Source: a virus. Taken from it: a stretch of DNA of 56,162 bases. Location: IMG/VR virus record IMGVR_UViG_3300035664_000020, positions 1 to 56,162 of that record, one strand, 5' to 3'. The notes under the pieces were generated by a model, which saw only the letters and a list, made by a program, of their open reading frames with translations, did not search any database and had not been told where the DNA came from. Shown here in pieces: positions 6,486 to 49,613 of this stretch. The translations under genes and the position numbers were made by a program. Positions within the stretch are counted from its first letter, which is position 1. Every line of letters starts with the position of its first letter.

Positions 6486-9400
6486 ATGGCTTCTGAAACA
6501 GACTGGCTGACAAAATACCCCGAAGTCGAACAAAAATCTTGGCTGGATAAGTATCCAGAGGCCGAGGATAAACCATTTTTCGACCTGTCTGACACTCTTT
6601 CCGCCACTGGAAGAGCTTTTACCTCTCTTGGAACGAGCGTTCCTGCGTCAATGCGTCAGGCATTTGGAGGCTTGGAAAATCCTTGGCAGCGCAGTGAGAG
6701 CTACATGCAAAGTCGGGCAGATATGCAAGCTCTTCAGGAAGAGCTTAATGCTTCCGAAGCAGCCGCTATGGAAGGCGGTGACGCATCATCGGTTTCATCC
6801 TCAATTCGAGAAGCAACTCCAAGCCTTGGATTTTCAGGATCAACTCTGGTTCCAAGTCTTGCGGCAGGTGCCGTAACCGCTCTTGCTACCAAAAGTCCGG
6901 CAGCGGCACGTTCAGCAGCAGCGGGAACATCGCTTTTGATGGCCTACCGCATGGCTGGCGCTCAATTCCTTGATGATTCTCGCGAAAGAATCGACAATTT
7001 CTTCCAAGAGAAGCTGCAACGTCCGCTGACTCCAGAAGAGCAAAATGAGGCATACGAGGAATTGCTTCCTTTAGCCCGTAAATTTGGTGCTGCCGAAGCT
7101 GGTCCAGAAGCTCTTGGCAATATGGCCCTCGGTGGCGCTGGAAAATACATCCGAAAGGCTCTGGGTGGCAAGAATGGCATCATGAGCCTTGCCTCAAATG
7201 CTCTATCTAAGGTCACTGGAGCTAAAGCAGTAGGAGCAGGTATTGGCGCTGCTGCTGGTGAAGTTGGCACAGAGGCGATTACCGCAGTTGAGCAGGATCG
7301 TATCAACAAGGAGTTTGAACAAAGTGTTCTTCGTGGAGAAGCGCCTGAGAGTGTTGTTTTGCCAGACAGGACGGTGCAAGATTATACCAAAGGAATCACT
7401 GAAGTTGCTCCGACAACTCTCGCGATGACTGGATTGATGGGCTTGGCTGGACTTGGACCAACAGCCCTCAATCGAGGTTATAGAGCTTTGCGTCCACAAG
7501 CTGAACAGCGGGCTGTTGAAGCTGAAATTGTTCCAGAGGAACCAGCGCCAGCGCCGCCCCCAGCACCAAAGACTCCAAGCCAAGTCATCGCTGACACGCT
7601 CTTGACCAATGCAGTCAACGTCTCATCTGATGCTACGAAGGCCACAGAAGCCGCGCTTGCAGTTGTGCAAGGCGTTGCAGCTACTACGCCTGTTGAGTTG
7701 CCAGTTCCAACTGTTGCTCCTACCGTAGAAACACCTTCTCCAGCAATGGAGCAGATTAAAACGCCATCACAAACGATCACTGACTCTGCGGAAGCAGGTG
7801 CAGGGGTGGGTGAGGCACCTATTACTGAAGAAACCGTTCTTCCAGCGCAACCCACAACCCAACTAGAAAATGCCCCTCTCAAAATCCCCGAGCAAGAAAG
7901 CCTTCTCCAAGAACCTCAAGGCCGAGTTGAAGGCCGGGAAACCGCTGAAGCAAGCCTTAGCGATCAGCTACTCAGTCCAGCGCCAAGCCAAGAAGAAGTA
8001 GCTCTATTTCAAGAAAAACTTGATTCCTTTTGGCAGGAAAAACCGACTCCACAAACAGTATGGGAGTTGGCCGAATCCGTTCCTGAAGGAGTGTGGGTTG
8101 AAGATGGTTCTGGCGCACTAAGGTCTAAAAAATCAAAGACCAGAACTACTCGAAGAGGCACTCAAGTTATTGAGTTTGAAACTGAATGGTTTAATGAGGA
8201 AACCCAACAATGGGAGCCTCTTCCACAAGGTTATACACAGGTTGAAAAAAGAGCGGATGGTTCATTTGCTTCCAATAACAGCCTGCCTACTGCATGGACA
8301 CCGGGATCATATACTGAAGTATCATCTGGTAAACGTGTTATCACGAAACCAGTAGTTGCATCTCAAGCCACACAGTCAAAAAAACAAGAACCAATCACCC
8401 CGCAAGGGACGCCGACGCCCGCTACCGAAGGCACGGTCATGCCGGGAGGCAGCGCCATGGAGCGGGATGTGACGAAGCCGGAGCAGATGACGCCGGAGGA
8501 ACACTTGAACGCTTGGAATCAATTAAACATTGATGCTCAAAAAGCGAGGGAAAAGGCAAACGCTGCTAAAGCGAAATTGCTTCCTAAAAATCCTGCGTCG
8601 CAAATTAGGCAAATGGAGAAAAACGCCAAACTAGAGCAAGAAGCAATTACTCTAGAAAATTTGAGAGATGAATTTCCTCCAACTCCTAGTTTTGCAATTG
8701 AGAATGCGGTAAAAGAAGGAAAGCCATTCTCGGTAGATCTCCATAAAGCATCAGGATATGCCTATATTCCCTCTGGCTACACCCGCCAAGGCGACCTCTA
8801 TGTATTCCAACCGGGGGCAACTGGCGAACCAGTTCAGGCAGCACCTTCTGCTGCACAGGCCGTGACGAAGCCAGCTACAGTCAAATCTACAGAGTTGCGA
8901 GTTGGTGATGAAGTGTCGTTCAAGGGAAATACATACCGTGTAAAGAGCAAGTTACTTGATGGCAGAGTTCGAGCCGAGTTCACAAATCCAGAAGGCATCG
9001 CCAAACTTCCAGCGGGTTCTGTTAACATCACAACCCTACCTCGTAACGTCAATCTCACACGCATTGAAAAACCATCTCCCCAAACCACAACGGTAGCCAC
9101 ACCAACAGAAACCGCCGCTCCCTTGGCTAAGGAAGCGGCGGTAGCCAGTGTTGTTCAACAACCAGCAGAGGGGTCGATCCCTGCTGTTGAGCAAGAATCT
9201 GCTACAACTGCCATAGAGTCAAATGAAAAAGCGGACATTGCAGATGCCGCAATGGCGTTCTTGGAAGAGGATTTGACCGAGAGCAAAAGGCAATGGAGTC
9301 CAGAAAAGATCGCTGCCGCAAAAGCCTACTTCGCTAGCGGTGGCAAAGACATGGATGTGCTTCGCGCTGCATTTCCAAAGCTAGTTGGCTCTCGTCCGAT

Positions 9401-12400
9401 TGTTCAAGCCTATCTCAAGGCTGATAAGGAGGCATCCGAAGCTCAAGCTAAGCGTGATGCAGCCGATGCCAAGCTCGCCAAGGAAATCGAGCGTGACGAG
9501 AAGGAGCAAGCCAAAGCAGAAGAGGCACAAAGGAAACGCGATGAGCTAAACCTCAAAACACTCAACTCGCTCATTCAGAAAACGCGCACGAACGTCGTTC
9601 AAGGAACCGTCAATCCAACAGATGCCAATCAAGCTGTCGCGATTCTCAATCGTTCAGGCGAGATTCCAAACGTGCTATTCACCTGGATTGGCACCTCAAA
9701 GGATTTCCTTGCTGATCCTGCGAATCGCGTTCGTTATCCTGAGACTTGGGCAGCAGTAAGCGCCGACTCAAAAATCGAAGGCATGTCGGAAAATGGACAG
9801 CCGATTGTTTTCACTGATAACGTAGGCGTATCCGATCTTGATCGCAAGCTAGCCAATCTTCAAGGAACTACGCCAGAAGTGGCGGCAGTTCGTCGCGTCA
9901 TTCTTCATGAGAACATCCACAAGGGCATGTTCTTCTTGTCGATGAAGGAGAAGATGCAGATATTCTCGTTCTTGCGCCGGATGTACTCTCCACAGGAGCT
10001 TGATTCGCTTGCTGAGTCCTACAGCGAGTATGCAGACTGGCGCACAAATCAGATTAGCTACTTCAGCATCCTTGAAGAAGCGATGACTCGCGACTTCGAT
10101 TCAATGGTGGAAATCCCGCGTGATGGCATTTGGGCAGAGTTCATACAATTTCTGCGTGGCATTTGGCAGAAGATCACGGGTAAAACGAGCGAGCCTACCT
10201 TGAAGGACTACAAGGACGTTTTCCGCCTGATTCGCAATAGCTTGAAGAATTCGGAGAAGGTTAATGCTGACATGCTGGTGAATGGTGGTGGCGTGCGGAT
10301 GAGTTACGCAGGCGAAACCTCCATTGAAAATCTTCCCGAAGAACGCCGTCAGTTCATGCGTGACTCGTTGGACACTGCAAAGGTGATGGCCGCAGCAGGC
10401 AAGACGAGCGAAGAGATTCGCGCCGTCGCTGGTTGGTTCCCCGGCAAGTATGACGGGAAGATGCGTTGGGAGGTGCCGGATGAGGGTGCTGCATGGAGCG
10501 GGAGTCTCGACTGGCAAGAGGCTGGAAAAGCATCCGCCAAACCCTCCTTCTACGGGGCGTTCTCGAATCTTCGCGGGGACGATTTCTCCATCCGCAAGCT
10601 GCCGCTGTCCTCCCTGCTAAACCATCCAGCCTTGTATGAGGTGTACCCCGACCTAAAGGACGTTGCGGTTCAGACCATCAATATCAAGCCTTCCCAAGCG
10701 GCATGGGGACCAGCGGGCATCACGATTGACGTTGACGCTTCCCCGGGGGAAGCCTTGTCGTCTGTCCTCCATGAGGTCCAGCATTGGATTCAAAGCAGGG
10801 AGGGATTTGCGGCTGGGTCATCCCCTGATGTTTCTGAAAAGCGGCCATGGGAGTCTATTGTCTCTTCGCATGAGGACACTACTATTGAGTTGTCAGATGC
10901 GTGGTCGCTTCGCAATAGCATAGATAAAGGCTCCACTCTACCCGAGGCGAAGGGAGCTTTTGAAGCTGAGTATGGGCGCAAGCCGCACATCACCTCTGGT
11001 CAGTTGGCTAAAGCGATGACCAAGGATGAGATAAACGCCGAGATGGATCGTCTCGCACAGAGCTTTGAGAAAGCAAGGTTCTTGGCACAGAGGGGGCTAC
11101 TCGGAGACGCTTACAAACAATACTTTAACACAGCAGGCGAGATCGAAGCTCGCGATGTACAAGCACGCCAGAATCTAACACCCGAACAACGTGCAGCCAC
11201 GGCCCCATACTCCTCAGAAAACATCGCCAAGGAAGATGCTATCGTGATGTTTGGTGGCAGTGGAACTCAAGCCTCTGTTGTTACCTACGACTCCCCTAAC
11301 GATGCCGCATTCAACAGTGGCGCTGAAGTAGCTCGCAACACTGACTACGACGAACGCGACAAGGAAGTGCGTTCTACTATTCGTGCGGCATACGATATTG
11401 CTCCGAAAACAAATGGTCCATCGGTGCCACTAGACGAGCTTTTCAGCATCGTGAAGCAGTCGATGCCTGATCTGACAGAAACCGAGTTCAGCCGCATTTT
11501 GCAAGGCTTGTATGAGGACAGTGGGGCGCTGTTGATTGAAGGTGAATCTCCATTTGCTACCTTCACCACCGAAGGCGAACGCGCTGGCTCTGCGATTATC
11601 ATGCCGCCTACCGACATGACTAAGGATGATGTCATTTCCATGCTTCGTGGTATGTCTGCTGCGAATCCAGCGCCATCTGGAGGAATAAACCAAGAATTAT
11701 ATGATACAGTACTTACTCAACTCAGGAATTTTATATCCAATGGAGGGCGAATCCCTTTACCAATTCAATTGGACCGCTCTGGTGAAGCCAATATGGATAA
11801 TTACACCGGCAAAAAGGCCGGACTTGGTGGAGGTTTACGACAAGGTTCTGGAGTTGGCCGGGCTGGACAGACTGATAGCGGGACACCACTCTTCGATGGC
11901 CTTCCAGAAGGAGTACAGGGAGTCATACCACAAGCACAAAGAGTCGAATCAGAAGTTTCTAGAAATCGTGAGGCAATTGCAGGAAGAGGGGAAAATCGCG
12001 AAGGGAAAGCCGGGGCCAGACCTGACATGGGAATGGCAAGTGGTGGCTACACTTTTGCCGATTATGCTCAAATTGCGTCCAGAATTGGAGCAAGAGTTCA
12101 GGAAGTTTCTAACGACATCGGAGGTGGACTGGCTGTTATGGCGGATGAAAATGGGGCCACAACCATCCTCATCAATGCCGCACAACTTAGTGAGCGGATG
12201 GCTGGAATCAGCTTCGGCTTAGATATAAATGGCGCTCTTGAAACTATCGGAAATGCCTTGGTTGAGGAACTGATTCACGCTGCCGACTTTGCAGTTCAAC
12301 GTGAGGCGTGGCTTGCCAGCGGAAGGCGTAAGCCGTTTACTGAATTTGCTACCAACAGCGACAAATCCATGTTGGAAGACATGAGAAAGGTTGTGGCATC

Positions 12401-15400
12401 AAGCAATGATCCAGTAAAAGCAACACGGATACTTTTTGATGCGATTCAAGCATCTCGCCAACTTTACGGTGCAGGCGCAACTCCAAGTGACATTGATGAG
12501 ATATTTTCATCTCCAAATGGCAACATCAGCATAGTGATGTCCGAGTTTGTGCGCCAGATGATTCAGCAAGACATGCACCAAACGGTTTCGGAAGCATCGC
12601 TATTCCGCCGCTTCATTGAGCGCGTGATGAAAATGCTACAAAAGATTCGTGATGCCATCGCTCCTGCAAAGGCTGGCGAGTTTGGCGATATTCTCAAGAA
12701 TCGTATCAACGAGACTGAAATGATGCTGGCGATGGCTTATCAGCAGACTGGCGCAAGGGCATCTATGATTGATCCTGAAGACGCTGCAACCAAGCAGTTC
12801 GCGAAGAATATTAAGGACATCAACAGTGGCACAGCTAAGGCTCCGTTTGGAGGCGTTCAGTTCAAAAACTTCATGCCAATTGACCGCACGGTCAAATCTG
12901 CTGAAGAATACAGTGACGCTGCCATCAAATACGTCAACAACCTTGAGAAGGAAGGCGTTTCGCTTGATGATATTGCGAACTCAGTCATCTCGCCAGCATT
13001 CCTTGAAAGCATCGGTATTGAGCAAGACTTGATGGCCCAAGACGCTCTGACTATCGAAGTCCGTCAACGTGTGGACAACGCTGCACGCGAGGAAAAGTTT
13101 CCAGGAAGAAAGAAGCAACTATCTAAACTTAGCGAGCGCCTATCTGCATTCTGGCAAGGCGTTGGTAGCAAAAAAGGTCAACACCTTGGACAACGACGCT
13201 ATCTTGTGAACAAAGCTCGTTATAGCTGGATGTTCATTCGTGAAATCGCAGAGAAAGCGATGAAGGAGGCTAGAACCAATATCCTCATTTCCAACTTTGG
13301 AGGCGAGAATGCAACTAGCTTCACGCAGAACAGCTATGCCGATTCTGATAAAGCCAATCAGCAGGCTGTTGATGAAGTTGCTAAGGATGTCGTCAACAAT
13401 GATGAGTGGGCATTGATTAAGGAAGGTGAACAGGTGTTTGAAGGCGCTCGTAAAACCATGTGGGAACGAGTTAAGTTCTTGGTTGCTCAGTTAGCCATAT
13501 TTGCTCGCAGAAAGTCAATTAAAGCCTCTAATGCCAAGGCTTCATTCACAGATGCTCAAATGAGCGAGCTAAACGCCATCCTGCAAATGTCGGATGATGA
13601 AGCGGCTAAAGCAGAGGCGAAAGTATTGGCAGAACTGGATTCTCTCATGGCTAAACTGGTTGGCGATGAGTCACCAACCGATACACCTGCCGAAAAGGCC
13701 AAGCGCAAGAAGCGCAAGGAGATCATCGACACGGTGGATAAGCGAGTGAAGGCTGGCGAATCTATTGAGCCAACCGAAGAAACAGAAACTAGCGAGGAAG
13801 AAGTCACAAAGGCTGAAGCCACCGCTCAAGCCATCCTAAAGGATTTGTCAGAGCGTTATTCTGATCCTCTTATCTTCAAAGAAAAGAAGCTGAACATCAA
13901 CGAAATGCGCGAACTCTACAAAGAGCGCGTAAAGCAAGGCAATGGCGCATCGCAAATGACGGAAGATTCATTCGTGAATAAAGCGATTGAACTTGGCGCT
14001 GATGAAAAGACCGCTGGCATTCTTTGGAGTGCGGCAGAACTAGAAATAGATGCCCGTGAGGCAATGCGGCAGGATAAGATCCGTCAACGCAATGCAGCAG
14101 CAGTAGAACGCGCTGATGCACAGGCTCATCGAATCATATTTGCCAAGGAGCGTTTGAAACGCCAAAGCGGATTTGCTGACATAGATACCAATCAGAACAA
14201 AGATACGATTATCAAAGCGTTCCGTGAGCAGGTTGAATCACCTGTTGCGCTTGATGCCTTCGTTCAGCGCCTTATTCCACTCAAGGTTAGTAGGCAGGTT
14301 GCAGAACGTCTATTTAGAGCGGCAGAACGCGAAAAGACCGATCTTGCTGCAATGGCTGTTTTTGATAAGACGCAAGGCCCAAAAGCCCTGCAACGAATGA
14401 TCAATGAGATCAACAACATGCGCCGTGGCGAGGAAATTCCTCTCAGGACACCTATCCCTTGGCGTCAGCTTCTCTCCCAAAGCGCAAAAACAGTTGAAGA
14501 ATACCGCCAACGTATCTTTGACGCTATCTCTGCCAACGAGGAACTCAAGAACGCAACGCCAGAGCAAAAGGCACGTCTTGCAGACTTGTTCGCTGAAGCA
14601 TGGGAATCCAATCGCACTCGTATTCTGGATGGTATGCTTGAGCGCATGATTCGCGCAGAAGAGGCCAAGAAGAATCTCAGCAAAGAAGGCGCTAAAGCTC
14701 TTCAAGCGCAACGGATGCGTATCGTTGAGGACATCAACTTGGGCATCTTCGATAACGATGAACTGGCAAAGCGCATGGCAGAGAAATTCGGCATCAAGTC
14801 CGAGTTCACTGAGACAGAGCGCGAAAAGATCAATTCGCTTATCGAGGTGCTTCAAGACGAAGGATTGAACGCTGTGAAGCGCCAAGTTGCTGCCTACAAG
14901 CTACTTGAGGTGCTGCAAGGCGAACTCAAGATTCCAGTGGCAAAGATGCTCGCTGACTTCTGGGTTTCCAGTGTGCTCTCTGGTCCAAATACTATCGTCT
15001 CAATTGGTCTTGCTGTTGCCAGCGGTGCATTCGAGCTTTCCACGGCATTGTCTCGCGTGTTCATCGCTGGATTCACCAATCCAAAGCAGCTTCCATCTGA
15101 GCTTGCTGGTGCATACAAAACACTCGCTCGATTGCTGAGTGCTTATGGTCGTCAGGCAAACATCGCGTGGCAATACCTTGTGAGTGGTGATCCAGTGTTT
15201 CTTGATCCATCTATGAACGATGTGACCGAGAACATGCAGTGGGGCAATATCGGTAAGAGCAACAAGCTGGCAGAACAAATGGCGAAGTCTGACAAGATTC
15301 TCGTCAAGAGCGCAGGCTTGTTTATGCGGACAGTTAGCCGTTTGCTTACCGCTCTCGACGTATTCAATAGTGGACTCACCAAGGAAGGCTCGCTTTCCAT

Positions 15401-16943
15401 CGTATTCCGCCAGATTGGACTCGATCCAGCTAAGATTGCTGAAATGGAGAAGAAGTCTGATTTGAAGCCTTACAAGGATGCCATTATTCAGAAAGACTTC
15501 AGCGGAACAGCTCCAAAGTCTGCACGCGACAAGGCTATTCTTGATTCCTACGCTCTGGCCGACATGATGGCAGAACTGGATAAACTTGGCAACGTGTCCG
15601 AGAACGCCAACTTCTTCGGTCAACAAGGTGCCATGACGCTTGATCCATCTGGACTTGGTGGTGTCGGTTATCGTGCGATCAGATCGCTTGTTACCAACGC
15701 TGAAGCAGGTGCTGATAGATTCCTAAAGCAAGCTCAACGCGGATGGAATGACTCGGCGCAGAATGGCGATAGGATTCTCTCTGGACTTGAGTTGGCATTC
15801 GCTTACTTCATGCAGTTCGCTGCCTACAATGCAGCTAACTTTGGCGGTGTTCGCTTCGCACGTTTCGCTGGCAACAAATTCAACCAAGGTCTGAGCTTCA
15901 TTCCAGGCATTGGTTTCGCTCGCGCATTCGAGGCTGAATTTGACCCTGATCGTATCAGAGGAAAAGAGGCATTCATCGACTCAATTCGGCGCAATCAGAT
16001 TATTGGAGTGATGTTATTCGCTGCTGGCTATCAAATCCTGAAAGCCATCGCGGACGAGCCAGATGACGAGAAGCGTGGTTGGTTCATCAATGGTAGCTGG
16101 GGTAACCTCACACCTGAGAAGAAGCAGCAGAAGCTAGCCGCTGGCGAGAAAGAGTACACCATCGGCATCAATGGCAAGGTGTTCAATTACGCCAACTGGC
16201 CTATTTCATCTGTGCTTGCAGCTATCGGAAGCCTTTCTGATCTGATCCGCTTCTCGCCAGATCAATGGAATGACAAAAACGTGGCTCAAATTATGGCAAG
16301 TGCCGCAATGTCTGGCGCTGCTGCTGCTGCTGACATTCCTGCTCTTTCCCAGTTCCAAGAGCTATTCGGCAACAGCTTGTCCAGCAAAGACCCCAACGAG
16401 AAGCGCATGGAGCGTTTTGCCAAGGTGATGTCAAGTTACGCTGGTGGCTTCGTTCCTCGATTCTTGAAGGACATCGACTACGCGCAAGATCCAAATCTGC
16501 GTAAATACGAAACACTGTGGGAGAAAACAGCCTCGCACATCCCTGTTTACCGTCGCTACGAAGGCAAGGAGTACTACGACATCTTGGGCCAGCAAATCCA
16601 ACGCAATGTGTATCCTGGAAGCCGCGAGTTCATGGTGAAGCCAACCGATCCGGCCTACAAGGTTCTCGGTGCTCTCAATTCCCGTGGAATTTGGCTGACT
16701 CCTGCCAATGCCGAACACCGCATGGTTGGCAAGGGCGCTCGTCGTCGCTCTCTTACACAGGAAGAAGCCGACAACTACAGCCTTGAAACCGGCAAAGGAT
16801 ACAAGCAGATGCTTCTGCGATACGGCCAGCGTGCGCTCCAGATGCCCACAGAACGCGCTAGAGCATTCTTGTTGGACAAAGCTGACGAAGTGCGCGACAG
16901 GGCGCTAAAGAAGGTCTATAGAGGCTATCAACCTGCAACGTGA
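6486..16943 (+). CDS. Giant polyvalent protein with metallopeptidase-like domains (ejected virion protein)
   Basis: One uninterrupted 3,485-residue frame. The N-terminus has a tandem motif (WLTKYPEVEQK / WLDKYPEAEDK) typical of phage internal proteins. Three metallopeptidase-like sites are visible: HENIH at ~1141, HEVQH at ~1429 in a context (HEVQHWIQSREGF) like the LPD23 domain of large polyvalent proteins, and a degenerate EELIHAAD at ~1927. Long charged helices fill ~2000-2700. The last ~600 residues contain hydrophobic helices and conserved aromatic blocks like the C-terminal region of phage polyvalent proteins. Such proteins are known to be packaged and injected with the genome to counter host defences or prepare the cell. 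Processing at internal sites is possible. An alternative overlapping frame lies at 11701-12222. Confidence 0.85.
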   Translation: MASETDWLTKYPEVEQKSWLDKYPEAEDKPFFDLSDTLSATGRAFTSLGTSVPASMRQAFGGLENPWQRSESYMQSRADMQALQEELNASEAAAMEGGDASSVSSSIREATPSLGFSGSTLVPSLAAGAVTALATKSPAAARSAAAGTSLLMAYRMAGAQFLDDSRERIDNFFQEKLQRPLTPEEQNEAYEELLPLARKFGAAEAGPEALGNMALGGAGKYIRKALGGKNGIMSLASNALSKVTGAKAVGAGIGAAAGEVGTEAITAVEQDRINKEFEQSVLRGEAPESVVLPDRTVQDYTKGITEVAPTTLAMTGLMGLAGLGPTALNRGYRALRPQAEQRAVEAEIVPEEPAPAPPPAPKTPSQVIADTLLTNAVNVSSDATKATEAALAVVQGVAATTPVELPVPTVAPTVETPSPAMEQIKTPSQTITDSAEAGAGVGEAPITEETVLPAQPTTQLENAPLKIPEQESLLQEPQGRVEGRETAEASLSDQLLSPAPSQEEVALFQEKLDSFWQEKPTPQTVWELAESVPEGVWVEDGSGALRSKKSKTRTTRRGTQVIEFETEWFNEETQQWEPLPQGYTQVEKRADGSFASNNSLPTAWTPGSYTEVSSGKRVITKPVVASQATQSKKQEPITPQGTPTPATEGTVMPGGSAMERDVTKPEQMTPEEHLNAWNQLNIDAQKAREKANAAKAKLLPKNPASQIRQMEKNAKLEQEAITLENLRDEFPPTPSFAIENAVKEGKPFSVDLHKASGYAYIPSGYTRQGDLYVFQPGATGEPVQAAPSAAQAVTKPATVKSTELRVGDEVSFKGNTYRVKSKLLDGRVRAEFTNPEGIAKLPAGSVNITTLPRNVNLTRIEKPSPQTTTVATPTETAAPLAKEAAVASVVQQPAEGSIPAVEQESATTAIESNEKADIADAAMAFLEEDLTESKRQWSPEKIAAAKAYFASGGKDMDVLRAAFPKLVGSRPIVQAYLKADKEASEAQAKRDAADAKLAKEIERDEKEQAKAEEAQRKRDELNLKTLNSLIQKTRTNVVQGTVNPTDANQAVAILNRSGEIPNVLFTWIGTSKDFLADPANRVRYPETWAAVSADSKIEGMSENGQPIVFTDNVGVSDLDRKLANLQGTTPEVAAVRRVILHENIHKGMFFLSMKEKMQIFSFLRRMYSPQELDSLAESYSEYADWRTNQISYFSILEEAMTRDFDSMVEIPRDGIWAEFIQFLRGIWQKITGKTSEPTLKDYKDVFRLIRNSLKNSEKVNADMLVNGGGVRMSYAGETSIENLPEERRQFMRDSLDTAKVMAAAGKTSEEIRAVAGWFPGKYDGKMRWEVPDEGAAWSGSLDWQEAGKASAKPSFYGAFSNLRGDDFSIRKLPLSSLLNHPALYEVYPDLKDVAVQTINIKPSQAAWGPAGITIDVDASPGEALSSVLHEVQHWIQSREGFAAGSSPDVSEKRPWESIVSSHEDTTIELSDAWSLRNSIDKGSTLPEAKGAFEAEYGRKPHITSGQLAKAMTKDEINAEMDRLAQSFEKARFLAQRGLLGDAYKQYFNTAGEIEARDVQARQNLTPEQRAATAPYSSENIAKEDAIVMFGGSGTQASVVTYDSPNDAAFNSGAEVARNTDYDERDKEVRSTIRAAYDIAPKTNGPSVPLDELFSIVKQSMPDLTETEFSRILQGLYEDSGALLIEGESPFATFTTEGERAGSAIIMPPTDMTKDDVISMLRGMSAANPAPSGGINQELYDTVLTQLRNFISNGGRIPLPIQLDRSGEANMDNYTGKKAGLGGGLRQGSGVGRAGQTDSGTPLFDGLPEGVQGVIPQAQRVESEVSRNREAIAGRGENREGKAGARPDMGMASGGYTFADYAQIASRIGARVQEVSNDIGGGLAVMADENGATTILINAAQLSERMAGISFGLDINGALETIGNALVEELIHAADFAVQREAWLASGRRKPFTEFATNSDKSMLEDMRKVVASSNDPVKATRILFDAIQASRQLYGAGATPSDIDEIFSSPNGNISIVMSEFVRQMIQQDMHQTVSEASLFRRFIERVMKMLQKIRDAIAPAKAGEFGDILKNRINETEMMLAMAYQQTGARASMIDPEDAATKQFAKNIKDINSGTAKAPFGGVQFKNFMPIDRTVKSAEEYSDAAIKYVNNLEKEGVSLDDIANSVISPAFLESIGIEQDLMAQDALTIEVRQRVDNAAREEKFPGRKKQLSKLSERLSAFWQGVGSKKGQHLGQRRYLVNKARYSWMFIREIAEKAMKEARTNILISNFGGENATSFTQNSYADSDKANQQAVDEVAKDVVNNDEWALIKEGEQVFEGARKTMWERVKFLVAQLAIFARRKSIKASNAKASFTDAQMSELNAILQMSDDEAAKAEAKVLAELDSLMAKLVGDESPTDTPAEKAKRKKRKEIIDTVDKRVKAGESIEPTEETETSEEEVTKAEATAQAILKDLSERYSDPLIFKEKKLNINEMRELYKERVKQGNGASQMTEDSFVNKAIELGADEKTAGILWSAAELEIDAREAMRQDKIRQRNAAAVERADAQAHRIIFAKERLKRQSGFADIDTNQNKDTIIKAFREQVESPVALDAFVQRLIPLKVSRQVAERLFRAAEREKTDLAAMAVFDKTQGPKALQRMINEINNMRRGEEIPLRTPIPWRQLLSQSAKTVEEYRQRIFDAISANEELKNATPEQKARLADLFAEAWESNRTRILDGMLERMIRAEEAKKNLSKEGAKALQAQRMRIVEDINLGIFDNDELAKRMAEKFGIKSEFTETEREKINSLIEVLQDEGLNAVKRQVAAYKLLEVLQGELKIPVAKMLADFWVSSVLSGPNTIVSIGLAVASGAFELSTALSRVFIAGFTNPKQLPSELAGAYKTLARLLSAYGRQANIAWQYLVSGDPVFLDPSMNDVTENMQWGNIGKSNKLAEQMAKSDKILVKSAGLFMRTVSRLLTALDVFNSGLTKEGSLSIVFRQIGLDPAKIAEMEKKSDLKPYKDAIIQKDFSGTAPKSARDKAILDSYALADMMAELDKLGNVSENANFFGQQGAMTLDPSGLGGVGYRAIRSLVTNAEAGADRFLKQAQRGWNDSAQNGDRILSGLELAFAYFMQFAAYNAANFGGVRFARFAGNKFNQGLSFIPGIGFARAFEAEFDPDRIRGKEAFIDSIRRNQIIGVMLFAAGYQILKAIADEPDDEKRGWFINGSWGNLTPEKKQQKLAAGEKEYTIGINGKVFNYANWPISSVLAAIGSLSDLIRFSPDQWNDKNVAQIMASAAMSGAAAAADIPALSQFQELFGNSLSSKDPNEKRMERFAKVMSSYAGGFVPRFLKDIDYAQDPNLRKYETLWEKTASHIPVYRRYEGKEYYDILGQQIQRNVYPGSREFMVKPTDPAYKVLGALNSRGIWLTPANAEHRMVGKGARRRSLTQEEADNYSLETGKGYKQMLLRYGQRALQMPTERARAFLLDKADEVRDRALKKVYRGYQPAT
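11701..12222 (+). CDS. Candidate overlapping ORF inside the giant gene
   Basis: A 173-residue frame lies wholly inside the giant gene, shifted by one frame. It reads as an amphipathic, charged helical protein (RPDLVEVYDKVLELAGLDR; NQKFLEIVRQLQEEGKIA; LRPELEQEFRKFLTT). Here the main frame becomes a Gly/Arg-rich low-complexity linker (GLGGGLRQGSGVGRAGQ). Third codon positions of the alternative frame look G/C-biased by eye. GGAGGAAT occurs 17 nt before the ATG, which is far for a ribosome site. This could be true overprinting, or a segment acquired in another frame. It may also be chance. Confidence 0.25.
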   Translation: MIQYLLNSGILYPMEGESLYQFNWTALVKPIWIITPAKRPDLVEVYDKVLELAGLDRLIAGHHSSMAFQKEYRESYHKHKESNQKFLEIVRQLQEEGKIAKGKPGPDLTWEWQVVATLLPIMLKLRPELEQEFRKFLTTSEVDWLLWRMKMGPQPSSSMPHNLVSGWLESASA

Positions 16944-18148: not shown

Positions 18149-19894
18149 TCATTTTGATGCCGCTGAAAAAGAAAAGGTATTTTTATGGTACTTCAACTTA
18201 AAGCTTCCTACCCAACCACTAACGCGCTGCTTTTCAATGATCACTTCAGTGTCGTGCATAGCGTCGATTATCTCGCGAGATTTACCAGCCTTGATAGCGT
18301 CATCCTTCGCCTTATTTCTAATGATAATTGCAACATTGTCTGGATTGTCGATGAGTGCAGATGATCCCTTGACGTGATACATTGTTGGTCTTTCGCCTTC
18401 AACTGGCTTGCGAAAATGACATACGAGATGCACATGACTGCCGCTTTCCTTGACAAAATTTTGCAGAGTGTTCACGATTTCAGCCTGCTTTTCCATGTCA
18501 GCTTGACCTTTAATTCTCATCATTGAGTCAATAATGAAATCTGTGCATCCATATCTACGATTGGCAAACCATAGCATTTCCATCAACTCTTCCATTGCTA
18601 TACTTCCAACGACATCAGCAAATAGAAGATACCTACCTATTTCTTGACAGAATCGACGCAACTTCGGCTCGTTGATCTCATGACCCATACAAACCTTTGC
18701 CAACCTGCCGATTTGATTCTCAACCAACATCTCCATGGTTGCCTCAAAAATATATCTCCTCTTACTTACTACGTTTGCCTTCAAAAAGTTAAGCATAGTA
18801 CTCTTGCCAGCAAAGGCTAAACCGCCCCATACTGTCAATTCTCCTGGTCGAAAATAAAACCCGGTACCCTCATGCCAATCGCCCTTAAAAAATGGCAATG
18901 TAAAGGCTTCCTCCTTGGGGGTGTATGAAGCCACAACACGTTCCTCCAACTCATCACCACGCACGAATTTATGGATTGCGGCCATCTTGGCATTTCCAAT
19001 CCAATCTAAAGCGTCCTTTTGAGTGTAGCCAGATTTTAGACAATCGTTCGCATCCTTTTTGGGCATTGAGACAATCATGCAACGATGCTTACCTAGACGC
19101 TGGATGATCTTGTCGGTTAATTCTCTTCCGGCTTTGTCTTGATCAAATGCCAGATAAATTGTGTCAAATGGAGCTAGATTATCCCACTCGTACTCAACCC
19201 ATGATGTGCCGGTGCCATTAGGAATAGAGATAGAATCGACTCCCCATTGAGTCCAAGTCATGCAGTCGATTTGACCCTCGCAAATGAGAACTGTTTTATC
19301 CTTATATGCTTGTTCATTGAGTGCATGCCATCCAAACATACATGGGGCGCAATCTTTTTCCTGCCATACCTGCTTAGGTTCAGTAAGAGTACGATATGAA
19401 CGATTGATCAACTCGCCATCTGGCGCGTAGCATGGAAAAACAATAGCCTGTCTTTCGCGGACTCCCTCAACCTTAAATTTCCGTATGATGTCAATCTTCA
19501 AATGCCTAGCACCTGTGAGATATGCAACACCTCTACCCTCTGTGGCAAGTTCAGGTATGGAATTTACAGGCTTGCGGTAATCCTTCTTTTTTGCATCGAC
19601 TGGATCATTAATACCAAGGTAATGTTTAGCCTCCTTGATGGCTTGTGCCGCTGTAATTCCTTTTGTGATGCGCCACAAATCGAGAAGATCGCCTTTATTG
19701 GAATCATCAGCCCAATCTCGCCAGTTTCCAACGTAACTGCCAACAAAAGCCACCTTCAGGCTTTTTCCTGGCGATCCAGCAATGTCTCCACACACCCAAA
19801 ACTGTCCATCTTCTTTGCCGCCAGGAAGAAGAAGCTTACAGACCTCTAAAGCCTTGTTTGAGAGCTTTTGGCTAATATCAGCTACCGTTACCAT
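18149..19894 (-). CDS. TOPRIM primase-DnaB-type helicase (T7 gp4-like, no N-terminal zinc finger)
   Basis: A 581-residue protein. The TOPRIM primase domain shows VLICEGQID with the catalytic Glu at ~206 and LAFDQDKAGRE with the DxD at ~251-253. A RecA/DnaB-like helicase follows, with Walker A GLAFAGKST at ~358-366 and Walker B DFIIDS with Asp at ~456. It should unwind DNA and synthesise primers at the fork. The Cys4 zinc finger of T7 gp4 is absent at the N-terminus, which may mean template recognition by a partner. The start has a strong Shine-Dalgarno (GAGGAGGTG) and overlaps the stop of the loader-like gene by 7 nt. Confidence 0.9.
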   Translation of the reverse strand: MVTVADISQKLSNKALEVCKLLLPGGKEDGQFWVCGDIAGSPGKSLKVAFVGSYVGNWRDWADDSNKGDLLDLWRITKGITAAQAIKEAKHYLGINDPVDAKKKDYRKPVNSIPELATEGRGVAYLTGARHLKIDIIRKFKVEGVRERQAIVFPCYAPDGELINRSYRTLTEPKQVWQEKDCAPCMFGWHALNEQAYKDKTVLICEGQIDCMTWTQWGVDSISIPNGTGTSWVEYEWDNLAPFDTIYLAFDQDKAGRELTDKIIQRLGKHRCMIVSMPKKDANDCLKSGYTQKDALDWIGNAKMAAIHKFVRGDELEERVVASYTPKEEAFTLPFFKGDWHEGTGFYFRPGELTVWGGLAFAGKSTMLNFLKANVVSKRRYIFEATMEMLVENQIGRLAKVCMGHEINEPKLRRFCQEIGRYLLFADVVGSIAMEELMEMLWFANRRYGCTDFIIDSMMRIKGQADMEKQAEIVNTLQNFVKESGSHVHLVCHFRKPVEGERPTMYHVKGSSALIDNPDNVAIIIRNKAKDDAIKAGKSREIIDAMHDTEVIIEKQRVSGWVGSFKLKYHKNTFSFSAASK

Positions 19895-20790
19895 ACTGAC
19901 ACCTCCTCGACGCTCTGAGGGCCATCTGTGTGCGAAATAGAGGCATCTGGTGAATTATTTTCACGGTATGATTCCAAAACTTTGTTGAAATCGACATCTA
20001 TGGTCGATTCTGGCTCTGGAGGAAGCTTTTCAAACCACTCTTGAAATTCCATAAAATTAGGGTTGTCCTTGATTGGATCGGCAAATTTAACCTGTGGCTG
20101 TTTAATGTCGGCCCGCTCGATTTCTTCTCCATCTTCCCACCCTCTCGCATTTAGCCATGTTGCGGGATGGGGGATGAATTGTCCATTGTCTTTTAGCCAG
20201 TCAGGTGATTCCAAGGCAACTCTAAGGCCAGAAAGTAACATATCGTTGGTTACGCCCTTGAGTGCCTTGAATGCCTTTAAGGCTTGCCCCTTCGACTTCT
20301 TCCTTGGATAAAGTTTCCAAAACTGCTGGAATGGCAATGGATAAAAATCATCCTGCTCAATAAGTTGGTTTTTATTCTTTTCTTCTTTGGGTGCTTCTTT
20401 TTCAGTACTTAGTACATGCTGGTTTCCAGAGATGGCTTCCCGTAATACGGCTTCCCGTTGATGGGTAGCCGCATCTGGAAAGCCGTTACTGGATGGATTA
20501 TCTTGCCACTCCCAGATAGATGGAAGTATTTTACCAGTTTCCTCGCACTTTTGTTGCGTTCTCTTGAGGTAATTAAACTGCTCCAATTCTCTAAATGCCC
20601 CATGAAGTGCCTCGCGCCCCTCAGTTCCCTGTTCTTGAATCCAAGAGGCGTGCGATTTCCAGTCATTCGGGAGAGACAACATCATGGCGAGAATGCCGCG
20701 AGACTTGAACGACAATCTTTTGTCACGCAAAAGGTCGTTTGGAAGTATTGTGTAATTTGCCGATAGCTTTTGTCTGTGGATAGTGATCAT
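19888..20790 (-). CDS. Replisome organiser / helicase-loader-like protein with winged helix
   Basis: A 300-residue protein. The N-terminal ~100 residues resemble the winged-helix domain of phage replication organisers (LPNDLLRDKRLSFKSRGILA, then SLPNDW, then LHGAFRELEQFNYLKR). After a Lys/Glu/Gln linker, the C-terminal half has FYPLPFQQFWKLYPRKK and WLNARGWEDGEE, a pattern common in DnaD- and replication-O-like proteins. It probably binds the origin and loads the adjacent primase-helicase, with which it overlaps by 7 nt. Strong Shine-Dalgarno AAGGAGGT 9 nt before the ATG. Confidence 0.75.
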   Translation of the reverse strand: MITIHRQKLSANYTILPNDLLRDKRLSFKSRGILAMMLSLPNDWKSHASWIQEQGTEGREALHGAFRELEQFNYLKRTQQKCEETGKILPSIWEWQDNPSSNGFPDAATHQREAVLREAISGNQHVLSTEKEAPKEEKNKNQLIEQDDFYPLPFQQFWKLYPRKKSKGQALKAFKALKGVTNDMLLSGLRVALESPDWLKDNGQFIPHPATWLNARGWEDGEEIERADIKQPQVKFADPIKDNPNFMEFQEWFEKLPPEPESTIDVDFNKVLESYRENNSPDASISHTDGPQSVEEVSVW

Positions 20791-21281
20791 TTCAAATCCA
20801 CCTCCTTATCAAAAATAGATGTAGCCTTTTTCATTAAATTATGAATCCTTCTTACGCGAGTCTTGCGCAGTGACTCCTTTTTTCGCTCATCAGTTTTGAT
20901 GTTTTTGAAAAGGTTGATGCATTCAAGCATGCTCTCGCAGAACTCAACAAGATCAGGATGATTAGAATCCATCGACTCTTGTACGCTGAACATCAAGAGG
21001 CATCGAATTGGATCACGAAGCATGGTTTTATTGAAAGCAGTTCTTCCTTCGTGATAATCTTGGTGGCACGAATGACACAAGCAGGCTAATTCAGAATCGT
21101 CGTATTCCCATGGTTCTGCACCTTTTCGATAGTCCCAATGATGAATATGCAATTCTTCTGATGGATCGGCGCAAAAAGAGCAGGAGAATTCATGCTTCTT
21201 CATTATTTCCAACCGTCGCTTTTGCCAGCGTGGGTCTTTGAGTTTTTGCCAATAAGGGATTGTGGAAATAGACATAGACAT
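20787..21281 (-). CDS. HNH endonuclease
   Basis: A 164-residue protein. A CxxC pair (CSFC) is followed by the HNH core LHIHHWDYRKG, then CLCHSCHQDYH, giving two zinc-binding Cys pairs around a metal-dependent nuclease centre. The C-terminus is basic and helical. It is the first of three overlapping replication genes (ATGA overlap with the loader-like gene). A homing endonuclease or a replication-linked nuclease are both possible. Translation is probably controlled: its SD AAGGGGG is buried in an 11-bp hairpin (see 21288-21337). Confidence 0.8.
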   Translation of the reverse strand: MSMSISTIPYWQKLKDPRWQKRRLEIMKKHEFSCSFCADPSEELHIHHWDYRKGAEPWEYDDSELACLCHSCHQDYHEGRTAFNKTMLRDPIRCLLMFSVQESMDSNHPDLVEFCESMLECINLFKNIKTDERKKESLRKTRVRRIHNLMKKATSIFDKEVDLK

Positions 21282-21287
21282 AGAAAT

Positions 21288-21337
21288 CCCCCTTCAAGTG
21301 AGGCCCACCGATGCGAACAAAGGTGGCTTGAAGGGGG
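21288..21337 (-). promoter_or_regulatory. SD-sequestering hairpin before HNH gene
   Basis: Perfect 11-bp inverted repeat: CCCCCTTCAAG at 21288-21298 and CTTGAAGGGGG at 21327-21337 (plus-strand reading). It is extended by CCACC (21305-21309) pairing with GGTGG (21322-21326) across a 6-nt bulge, with a 12-nt loop. On the minus-strand RNA the 3' arm contains AAGGGGG, ending 6 nt before the HNH start codon at 21281, which is an ideal SD position. The SD is thus paired in the folded leader, implying repressed or conditional translation. Confidence 0.75.
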
Positions 21338-21352
21338 TAAATTTATTTCTGC

Positions 21353-21375
21353 AATCATTGGCCTCAACAATGATT
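21353..21375. repeat. Second leader hairpin upstream of HNH gene
   Basis: Inverted repeat AATCATTG (21353-21360) and CAATGATT (21368-21375), 8 bp with a 7-nt loop. It lies in the same 147-nt untranslated stretch as the SD-sequestering hairpin and could act as a pause site, an operator or part of a larger leader fold. Confidence 0.4.
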
Positions 21376-21428
21376 TGTCGTATTCGACACACAACTTTGA
21401 TCCAAGTTGCCAAGAGCGTCAACAAAAA

Positions 21429-21800
21429 CTACCCAATTGCGGCCAGTTCTTCGTGCTGTGCCAGCACATTCTGCACATAGGAAGAGTCATCAACTCCAGC
21501 TTCGAGCAGGCAATTGTAAAGCCTGTCTGCATCCTTGCGCGATTCGGCCAGCTTACCACGCCATATATCTTCGATGCGGATCAGTTGCGCCTGGAAGCTC
21601 TCCTGGCGTTCTTGAAGGCGCTGGTTTAACTCGGTGATCACCTCACCTATTTTGAGGCATTTAAGCTCCAATTCGGCAGATTTCTTGATGATACTGTTAC
21701 GTTCTAGCTCAAGTTGACGGGCGAAGTCTGTAGGAACCATGTATTCTTGGGCAAAAGCCATTTTCTCAGCCGCATCTGTCTCTGGTGTTGGTGTATTCAT
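21429..21800 (-). CDS. Coiled-coil phage protein
   Basis: A 123-residue protein, predominantly helical. The start (MNTPTPETDAAEKMAFAQEY, then VPTDFARQLELERN) matches a style of small phage proteins common in early regions. Residues ~35-85 form a likely coiled coil (IIKKSAELELKCLKIGEVI; LQERQESFQAQL). A/T leader TGAATATG without SD. Function unknown. The gene ends 147 nt before the HNH gene; the gap is filled by hairpins. Confidence 0.6.
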   Translation of the reverse strand: MNTPTPETDAAEKMAFAQEYMVPTDFARQLELERNSIIKKSAELELKCLKIGEVITELNQRLQERQESFQAQLIRIEDIWRGKLAESRKDADRLYNCLLEAGVDDSSYVQNVLAQHEELAAIG

Positions 21801-21802
21801 AT

Positions 21803-22066
21803 TCAGTTATTGATAAAGTGTGCGTCAATCTCTGCTGCAATGTCCTCAACCATGTCGTCCAAAGTATCCACAGCACATTCCCAGACTGCATCGCGCATCA
21901 ATGGGTCGTAGCTGGCGATTTGAACGGCTAGCAGGTGGATAAGTACTTGGGTGGTTTCATCCCTAGATGCCTTCGTGTTATTAAGAGTACGAGCCAACTG
22001 ATTGTGAAGTCGGCACTCTGCCGATGGTTGTTTTGAGTTTGGCATTATTTGATTGTTCTCCGGCAT
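21803..22066 (-). CDS. Hypothetical small protein
   Basis: An 87-residue mainly helical protein (TTQVLIHLLAVQIASYDPLM; VDTLDDMVEDIAAEIDAHF). The stop is 2 nt from the next gene's start, and the 5' end overlaps the HNH gene by 22 nt. No recognised family. The overlap suggests that the HNH gene upstream was inserted next to its start. Confidence 0.5.
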   Translation of the reverse strand: MPENNQIMPNSKQPSAECRLHNQLARTLNNTKASRDETTQVLIHLLAVQIASYDPLMRDAVWECAVDTLDDMVEDIAAEIDAHFINN

Positions 22067-22689
22067 CTTCTTACACCTTTTGGTGTTGTTAAAATTTCTT
22101 CATCGCTCCATCCATTTTGGATTCTGTTCCATATTACAGAATGAGGCCAGTTCAATTCACGGCACCATTGAGTAAGCAGTTTAGACTCTCCATTTAAAGT
22201 TAAAAATTTAGAGTCACAACGATTCTCAGCTTGTTGCTTTGCCGTTGCCCATCTCACGTTGCACGGCTCATAATTTCCATTATTATTGATTCTGTCTAAT
22301 GAGTAAGATGAATCTGGAGGATGACCAACATCTTTAAAAAACAGATCAAACGGACTTTCTCCATTTTCACCAAATCTCCAACGGTTACACACTTGAATAC
22401 CACGTTTGCGATAATTCACATGTTGAGGTTTTGATCCATAACATCTGTTAAGCATAGATCTCCAAGCCATGTGAGTTTTTGATTCAATATCACCTCTGTA
22501 TTGCCCGTGTTTTACAGGTGAATTTTTACCTTTTAGGCAACCGCAACTTTTCTGCTTCAGCTTTTTCCCATCAATGCCTATCCATTTTTTGTTTCCACAA
22601 CTACATGCACAAAAGCAGTACCATTTGTTTTTTAGATATTGAAATTGATGATCAAGAACCAAAAGGTTATCAAATTGATTTCCCACCAT
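22045..22689 (-). CDS. HNH homing endonuclease with N-terminal CxCG/SCGC zinc module
   Basis: A 214-residue protein from the ATG at 22689; an in-frame ATG at 22806 would run through the conserved small gene at 22670-22810, so I prefer the inner start. Residues 1-57 form a zinc module (CACSCGNKKW then KSCGC), the same module found alone at 32034, 33420 and 35210. An HNH-type nuclease core follows: WRSMLNRCYG, YSLDRINNNGNYEPCNVRW. The C-terminus has a small repeat-like recognition part (LTLNGESKLLTQWCRELNW). Such proteins are mobile endonucleases that copy themselves into allelic sites. Confidence 0.8.
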   Translation of the reverse strand: MVGNQFDNLLVLDHQFQYLKNKWYCFCACSCGNKKWIGIDGKKLKQKSCGCLKGKNSPVKHGQYRGDIESKTHMAWRSMLNRCYGSKPQHVNYRKRGIQVCNRWRFGENGESPFDLFFKDVGHPPDSSYSLDRINNNGNYEPCNVRWATAKQQAENRCDSKFLTLNGESKLLTQWCRELNWPHSVIWNRIQNGWSDEEILTTPKGVRRCRRTIK

Positions 22690-22810
22690 TTTTTTTCGGT
22701 CTTCCGCCCTTTTTGCCATTAAGTTTAGACGATTGTGACTTAGCCATACTTTTTGCGCTGCCGCCTTTTTTTCCAAGTTCAACTGCGTTTGGATTTTTGT
22801 TTTCATTCAT
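22670..22810 (-). CDS. Small basic GKKGGRP protein
   Basis: A 46-residue ORF with NPNAVELGKKGGSAKSMAKS and NGKKGGRPKKNGGKS. This resembles a recurrent family of tiny basic proteins with Lys-Gly-Gly-Arg-Pro motifs, similar to AT-hooks, so DNA or RNA binding is plausible. It overlaps the HNH endonuclease start by 20 nt and an earlier possible HNH start entirely. The leader is ATTATTATCATTATG without SD. Confidence 0.6.
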   Translation of the reverse strand: MNENKNPNAVELGKKGGSAKSMAKSQSSKLNGKKGGRPKKNGGKSI

Positions 22811-49340: not shown

Positions 49341-49613
49341 ATGAAACTCTCTTTTACCTCACCTGAAGGCTGGCAAATGCCAGAAGACGCAACACCTGGA
49401 CAGCCTTTTCAAGCTGTTGGAACATTCCTCGCCGATGAAGACGGCAATCTCACTCTGACAGCCATTGATGGAACTGAAATTCCAATGATGGAAGACGACG
49501 AGATGGAGATGGAAGATGAAGGAGTTGAAGTCGAAGTGACGATGCCCGAAAAAGAAATGTCTGAAGAAGAAGACATGATGGATCGCGCTAAGAAAATGGG
49601 CGTCTTCAAATAA
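49341..49613 (+). CDS. Small acidic protein after capsid
   Basis: A 90-residue protein. Beta-type start (MKLSFTSPEGWQMPEDATPG) and a strongly acidic, Met/Glu-rich C-terminal half (PMMEDDEMEMEDEGVEVEV, EKEMSEEEDMM). Size and location just after the capsid gene suggest a head decoration or head-completion protein; not recognised. Confidence 0.55.
   Translation: MKLSFTSPEGWQMPEDATPGQPFQAVGTFLADEDGNLTLTAIDGTEIPMMEDDEMEMEDEGVEVEVTMPEKEMSEEEDMMDRAKKMGVFK

Follow-up and report, generated by a model that had tools for sequence, protein, structure and literature searches.

In the leader of repZ, a replication gene of the IncI plasmid ColIb-P9, the loop of an upstream hairpin pairs near the Shine–Dalgarno (SD) region, and the rep leaders of staphylococcal and streptococcal plasmids work through transcription attenuation. 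That this attenuation serves copy control is described in PMC8383071. Hairpins that hide the ribosome-binding site of nuclease genes are described for I-TevI and segB in phage T4 and for mobE, which encodes an HNH enzyme, in phage Aeh1 (PMC2988022). Outside a few models, little is known about how phages time the expression of their replication genes and keep it in check. Among open-access papers, we found no description of an element like the one reported here, and a search on the CI RNA of phage P4 gave nothing relevant.

We analyzed a viral DNA of 56,162 nt (IMG/VR record IMGVR_UViG_3300035664_000020), hereafter called the window, in which the leader of an HNH nuclease gene is read on the minus strand, as are all of the leader features below. 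The 147-nt leader (21428..21282) lies between a preceding ORF of unknown function (21800..21429) and the HNH ORF, and it carries an ideal SD, AAGGGGG (21294..21288), 6 nt (AUUUCU) ahead of the AUG at 21281. The stem that closes just before the start codon, P1, is a perfect inverted repeat that also appears in the minimum free energy (MFE) fold; its 5' arm CCCCCUUCAAG (21327..21337, read 21337..21327) and its 3' arm CUUGAAGGGGG (21288..21298, read 21298..21288), which contains the SD, form Watson–Crick pairs at 11/11 positions. Within P1, the MFE fold places a 5-bp stem-loop, P2 (21305..21326; CCACC at 21326..21322 with GGUGG at 21309..21305), and a 6-nt bulge, GCCUCA (21299..21304), separates P2 from P1 on the 3' side; P1 and P2 together enclose the whole SD. 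Farther upstream lies an 8-bp hairpin, H1 (21353..21375; AAUCAUUG-UUGAGGC-CAAUGAUU), and the 5' part of the leader holds a weaker hairpin in the MFE fold (CAACUU/AAGUUG with flanking pairs, 21391..21420), which shows a few changes among relatives. The 67-nt SD stem-loop has an MFE of -27.9 kcal/mol (z -4.56; 0/200 shuffles equally good), and the entire leader with the start codon gave z -2.99 (1/200 shuffles equally good). The first-pass annotation had reported the leader length, the ideal SD, its complete pairing in a perfect 11-bp stem with five further pairs beyond a bulge, as well as another 8-bp hairpin upstream, and the coordinates, the ORF list, the sequence and the fold bear out each of these points. 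As a bare inverted repeat, P1 is unremarkable, because a repeat search of the window returned 11 inverted repeats of at least 10 nt, of which three were perfect.

What the first-pass annotation had missed is a link between the two hairpins, which makes the element richer than it had described. The bulge GCCUCA is complementary over 6/6 nt to 6 of the 7 nt in the H1 loop UUGAGGC, and we propose it as the kissing partner of that loop (UGAGGC, 21366..21361). To express this arrangement as an architecture score, we combined a hairpin, the pairing of its loop into a stem, and the closure of that stem near an AUG. The leader ranked first among the 2140 ATG-preceding segments of 230 nt on both strands of the window, and its score was reached by 0/2000 dinucleotide shuffles; a cruder single-locus test, which took the longest stretch of the upstream segment able to pair with the interior of P1, gave p = 0.119 (200 shuffles). 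Position, stability and, above all, bulge/loop complementarity make the hairpin more than a chance feature. The second-best locus in the architecture scan was a very stable terminator-like hairpin, GAGGCGGGGUUAG...CUAGCCCCGCCUU, on the plus strand at ~49350-49435.

Downstream of the leader, the first gene (20787..21281, minus strand) encodes a 164-aa HNH nuclease that matches PHROG HNH families (best E 3.8e-12) and has no Pfam match. The replication initiator gene follows on the same strand (19888..20790; phrog_270, E 4.2e-33), its start overlapping the HNH stop codon (AUGA), and the primase/helicase gene (18149..19894, minus strand; phrog_239, E 2.9e-92; Toprim_2 and DnaB_C) in turn starts within the initiator end. 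With their ends overlapping in this way, the three genes look like one operon. In 18 of 20 operons tested, the gene 3' of HNH matched replication initiator, primosomal, O-like, DnaD-like or replisome-organizer PHROGs; in the exceptions, L043 and L047, it matched families of unknown function only. Elsewhere in the window, a second, unrelated HNH gene (22045-22806; phrog_3377, phrog_374) lies three genes upstream of the leader and is missing at the matching place in the related record L007, and one ORF (6486-16943) reaches 3485 aa, an unusual length in a phage record of such size.

A pattern scan recovered the window's form of leader, type A, from four further records (L002=L005, L003=L006, L007 and L009), and a second pattern search returned the same four only. 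Matches to the exact hairpin pattern in L004, L008 and L010 were unrelated and were dropped as chance or local repeats; on two of these unrelated contigs (L004, ~2640-2760; L010, ~1250-1370), CCCCCTTCAAG/CTTGAAGGGGG-like units are clustered in direct and inverted orientation and are perhaps iteron-like. The kissing helix is invariant in the five type A records, which are near-identical, and type A thus offers no covariation. L002=L005 and L003=L006 carry the leader with the same HNH gene as the window. In L007 and L009, the leader is 97-98% identical to that of the window, but the HNH gene is a different one (34% identity over 73 aa) that is fused to a T5orf172/MUG113 domain; the initiator N terminus also differs, and similarity to the window resumes in the initiator C terminus. 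At this hybrid leader-gene junction (L007, 8373-8430; L009, 1999-2056), the AUG at the ideal distance from the SD is out of frame with HNH and opens an ORF of 17 codons overlapping HNH-T5orf172, whose in-frame AUG lies 14 nt from the SD. In these two records, SD masking may act on the 17-codon ORF.

Among relatives of the HNH-T5orf172 gene, a second leader, type B, was found in front of the same fused gene. When reference L031 (=L007) was compared with the type B loci L034, L038, L039 and L042, identity was 95.6-97.2% for the HNH genes and 97.1-98.4% over the 1140 nt that follow, whereas leaders A and B at these loci shared 38.7-46.2% identity, which is the level of shuffled sequence (mean 36.7, maximum 47.4). 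Since the operons are near-identical, unrelated leaders evidently replace each other in one operon, and the swap spans the stretch from the end of the upstream gene to the start codon. A fifth type B locus, L043, differs downstream as well. In L045 and L066, which are the same contig, the leader and the 5' part of HNH are apparently deleted, and the upstream gene runs straight into the HNH coding region.

We then analyzed how widespread such leaders are. A profile search with six HNH proteins returned 80 loci from viruses and 9 from genomes. Together with the window and L029, these gave 87 leaders with enough upstream sequence, of which 61 were non-redundant. After four groups of the int-alpA type (considered below) had been set aside, 57 remained: 27 spaced leaders (at least 90 nt, or no ORF, upstream) and 30 with less than 90 nt, which served as a built-in control. 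The architecture score reached p ≤ 0.05 (60 shuffles each) in 18/27 spaced leaders, the other 9/27 missing this threshold, compared to 3/30 of the control (Fisher p 9.4e-6). As 30/61 HNH leaders have no room for the RNA, such operons can do without it. Loop-target complementarity of at least 7 nt was found in 18/25 matched leaders versus 19% of mismatched leader pairs, the pairs not being independent; two of the 27 had been dropped for a weak stem, the automatic choice of P1 was wrong for several leaders (e.g., L078, L079, L089, L108, L109 and L121), and we used only the pooled contrast, single-locus shuffles often being not significant. Placement by hand gave one and the same order of H1 loop, P1, target and start for 26 leaders belonging to 23 groups; this set, picked by eye, is a description and not a test. 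When 23 leaders were ranked within their own loci, 14 ranked first and 20 fell in the top 5% (the misses were L114, L078 and L109); L029, added later, ranked 12/283. Among cultivated phages, a DNA search gave no match and searches with HNH proteins returned only Pan5 and Abp95, where no comparable leader was seen by eye in the stretches inspected.

With Rfam release 15, the whole window gave 0 matches at the gathering cut-off and the leader region a single chance match far below it (E ≤ 10), and no family matches the type A, B or C leaders or that of L029. Among relatives, only int-alpA was recovered, in other leaders, besides chance matches below the threshold. The same slot is filled by the int-alpA RNA (RF02996) in eight loci, above the gathering cut-off in L076, L107 and L133 and below it in L094, L095, L101, L106 and L127. 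In the first three, it lies directly 5' of HNH (2417-2485, 2414-2484 and 2417-2485, respectively); L076 also has a replication initiator, and L133 is a Dyella genome. Like the leaders described here, int-alpA is thus a structured RNA directly 5' of HNH genes, and in its alignment, read by eye, its hairpin loop looks complementary to its own 3' end. Unlike them, it has a conserved sequence core, its loop partner lies downstream rather than upstream, and it does not match the window leader. Its place next to HNH and replication genes may hint at the function of int-alpA.

Unrelated leader sequences share the architecture. In type B, the H1 loop GUAGUG meets the target CACUAC, or GUUGCG meets CGCAAC, with GUAGAGA and UCUCUAC in L071; in type C, the loop GUGGAAAC is matched by GUUUCCAC, or GUGGAAG by CUUCCAC; and in L079-like leaders, AUGCGAC is matched by GUCGCAU, or GUACCAG by CUGGUAC. 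Covariation was counted at named pairs on four alignments, of which A3, A4 and A5 cover few lineages. In A3 (type B; 13 rows, 7 distinct), 94.7% of cells were paired, with row L071, one column out of register, showing as unpaired cells, and 2/6 kissing pairs were changed on both sides. The corresponding values were 98.7% and 1/7 for A4 (type C; 4 rows, only 3 distinct), 92.4% and 4/7 for A5 (4 rows), and 100% and 1/7 for A7 (13 rows, 8 distinct), in which neither both-side changes nor further pair types rise above the shuffled level. When the partners were shifted by 1-3 columns, pairing fell to 30-58% in each of the four alignments. On these counts, the predicted kissing helix covaries in four families other than type A.

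A second set, anchored on the L030 primase and thus independent of HNH, comprised 26 loci, 23 of them with usable upstream sequence. The architecture stood directly before the first gene of the operon in 20/23 loci from seven groups, 13 of the 20 being one close group; the best position was taken among all NTG codons over ~2.4 kb, and the shuffle counts are uncorrected for that choice. L162 (3/200 shuffles) was counted as a miss, its architecture lying ~2 kb from the primase; L152 gave 11/200 shuffles, and L149 is cut by the contig end. In three groups, L142 (=L030), L145 and L146/L147, tblastn with five HNH queries found no HNH gene. The first gene of the operon is instead a 46-codon Cys-containing ORF in L142, a DUF559 protein (E 2.3e-19) in L145 and, in L146/L147, a protein of 119 aa whose weak match to PF12843 stays below the cut-off; in L030, L145 and L147, the gene that follows matches replication initiators. 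The genes at the initiator position had no match in L143 and L155, and in L153 the only match was to a family of unknown function. Because leaders are swapped, the leader also precedes a different HNH gene, the RNA persists without HNH, and an initiator comes next in 18/20 operons, the element is the leader of a replication operon and not an HNH accessory.

These results bear on two readings centered on the nuclease. The first-pass annotation had likened the locus to T4, where a simple SD-hiding hairpin would delay HNH translation and the upstream hairpin would be incidental. Its sequestration component holds: as in the I-TevI, segB and mobE leaders (PMC2988022), a phage nuclease gene is preceded by a good SD that a stable hairpin encloses completely. 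The notion of a device traveling with its endonuclease gene does not, given the exchange of leaders, the different HNH gene and the RNA without HNH; moreover, the leader stands at the head of a replication operon, its second hairpin is able to kiss the bulge, and the loop/bulge match, its recurrence and the covariation of the kissing helix all argue against an incidental H1. Nor was a promoter, such as the late promoter of T4-type leaders, seen within the hairpin: a scan for the sigma-70 type only found none near the leader on the minus strand and none on either strand within 21282-21428. An independent example of T4-type control is possible for this one phage, but it does not explain the class, and overall we regard this explanation as quite unlikely. 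The RNA might instead be the ribonucleoprotein partner of the nuclease, in the way that omegaRNA is the RNA partner of IscB, and in many phages its position is indeed immediately 5' of a small HNH gene; with RNAs lacking an HNH gene, 30/61 HNH genes lacking room for an RNA, and one HNH gene preceded by the unrelated leaders A and B, we consider such a partnership highly improbable.

The closing stem appears to differ in its output among relatives. In the window, no U-tract follows P1 and the SD sits inside it. In comparison, 9/21 significant leaders had UUUU where the automatically chosen P1 ends (8% background), and a U-tract followed P1 in 14/23 hand-set groups (tails, arms included). P1 would thus be a terminator in many relatives and an SD mask in the window, as expected of a cis-acting leader with exchangeable expression platforms. 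The U-tracts, together with the eight loci in which an RNA typed as "sRNA" in Rfam (int-alpA) occupies the same slot, would also suit a trans-acting small RNA that ends at P1 and acts elsewhere, the slot being merely the site of its gene. We judge this to be a fairly unlikely explanation, as P1 ends only 7-27 nt ahead of the AUG in 25/26 hand-set leaders, the window has an SD in place of a U-tract, and the slot stays fixed while the sequence and the first gene vary. A DNA element, i.e., a replication origin or nuclease site using the inverted repeats as hairpins or a cruciform, would fit the repeats and the position in a replication module. The orientation of the element is fixed relative to the gene, however, the U-tracts lie on the sense strand and complementarity of the kissing kind is typical of RNA; a search for iteron-like repeats near the leader found none, GC skew (in coarse 2-kb windows) shows no clear turn there, and a DNA element seems very unlikely.

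With moderate confidence, we favor a structured 5' leader acting in cis as the gate of a phage replication operon (HNH, initiator and primase/helicase). We infer that the RNA is a switch with P1 as its output and with translational coupling through the operon. In this model, H1 would fold first, and its loop would then pair with the bulge in the start-proximal stem-loop, yielding a compact pseudoknotted fold closed by P1. In the window phage, with the SD held within P1, translation of HNH would be blocked, and through the overlapping stop and start codons that of the initiator and primase would probably be reduced too. In most relatives, where a U-tract follows P1, transcription would stop immediately ahead of the first start codon. 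Several observations count against the model: the type A leader does not covary, the AUG at the ideal spacing is out of frame in L007 and L009, 30/61 HNH leaders leave no space for the RNA, 9/27 spaced leaders miss the score threshold, the hand-set structures were picked by eye, and the scan found no sigma-70-like promoter near the leader on the minus strand. Candidate triggers are an antisense or trans RNA, a protein of the operon, and the timing of transcription. The first-pass annotation had also offered two sensor readings. A small-molecule sensor finds no support in the comparison of leaders A and B, which share no sequence core, and no conserved ligand-binding core of the kind found in a metabolite riboswitch was seen; for an RNA thermometer, the very stable stem (calculated at 37 °C) speaks against that interpretation.

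If the favored model is correct, one RNA fold, rebuilt from unrelated sequences, gates the initiator operon in many uncultivated phages. Replication operons could then be found without protein homology, and the case shows why sequence-based RNA catalogues miss such elements. We also entertain, as an unlikely extension, a class of replication-gating leader RNAs defined by the kissing architecture rather than by sequence, in which additional pairing in trans between coinfecting genomes would have led loop/bulge pairs to diversify and to be swapped as cassettes; the leader would then be an RNA locus for copy control or superinfection immunity, equivalent in phages to the incompatibility RNAs of plasmids.

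The favored model, if correct, would give phages a parallel to the RNA control of plasmid copy number. With the staphylococcal and streptococcal rep leaders, this locus would share an attenuator in a replication-gene leader, which in those plasmids sets copy number; it differs in that no antisense RNA is known here and the predicted loop-bulge kissing occurs in cis. With repZ of ColIb-P9, it shares a place in the leader of a replication gene and a predicted pseudoknot, the loop of an upstream hairpin pairing, in silico, close to the SD-bearing stem. repZ has an antisense RNA to its loop and a leader peptide, neither of which is known for the present leaders; it belongs to a plasmid, whereas the present leaders belong to phages, and in the relatives of the window leader the start-proximal stem is usually terminator-like.
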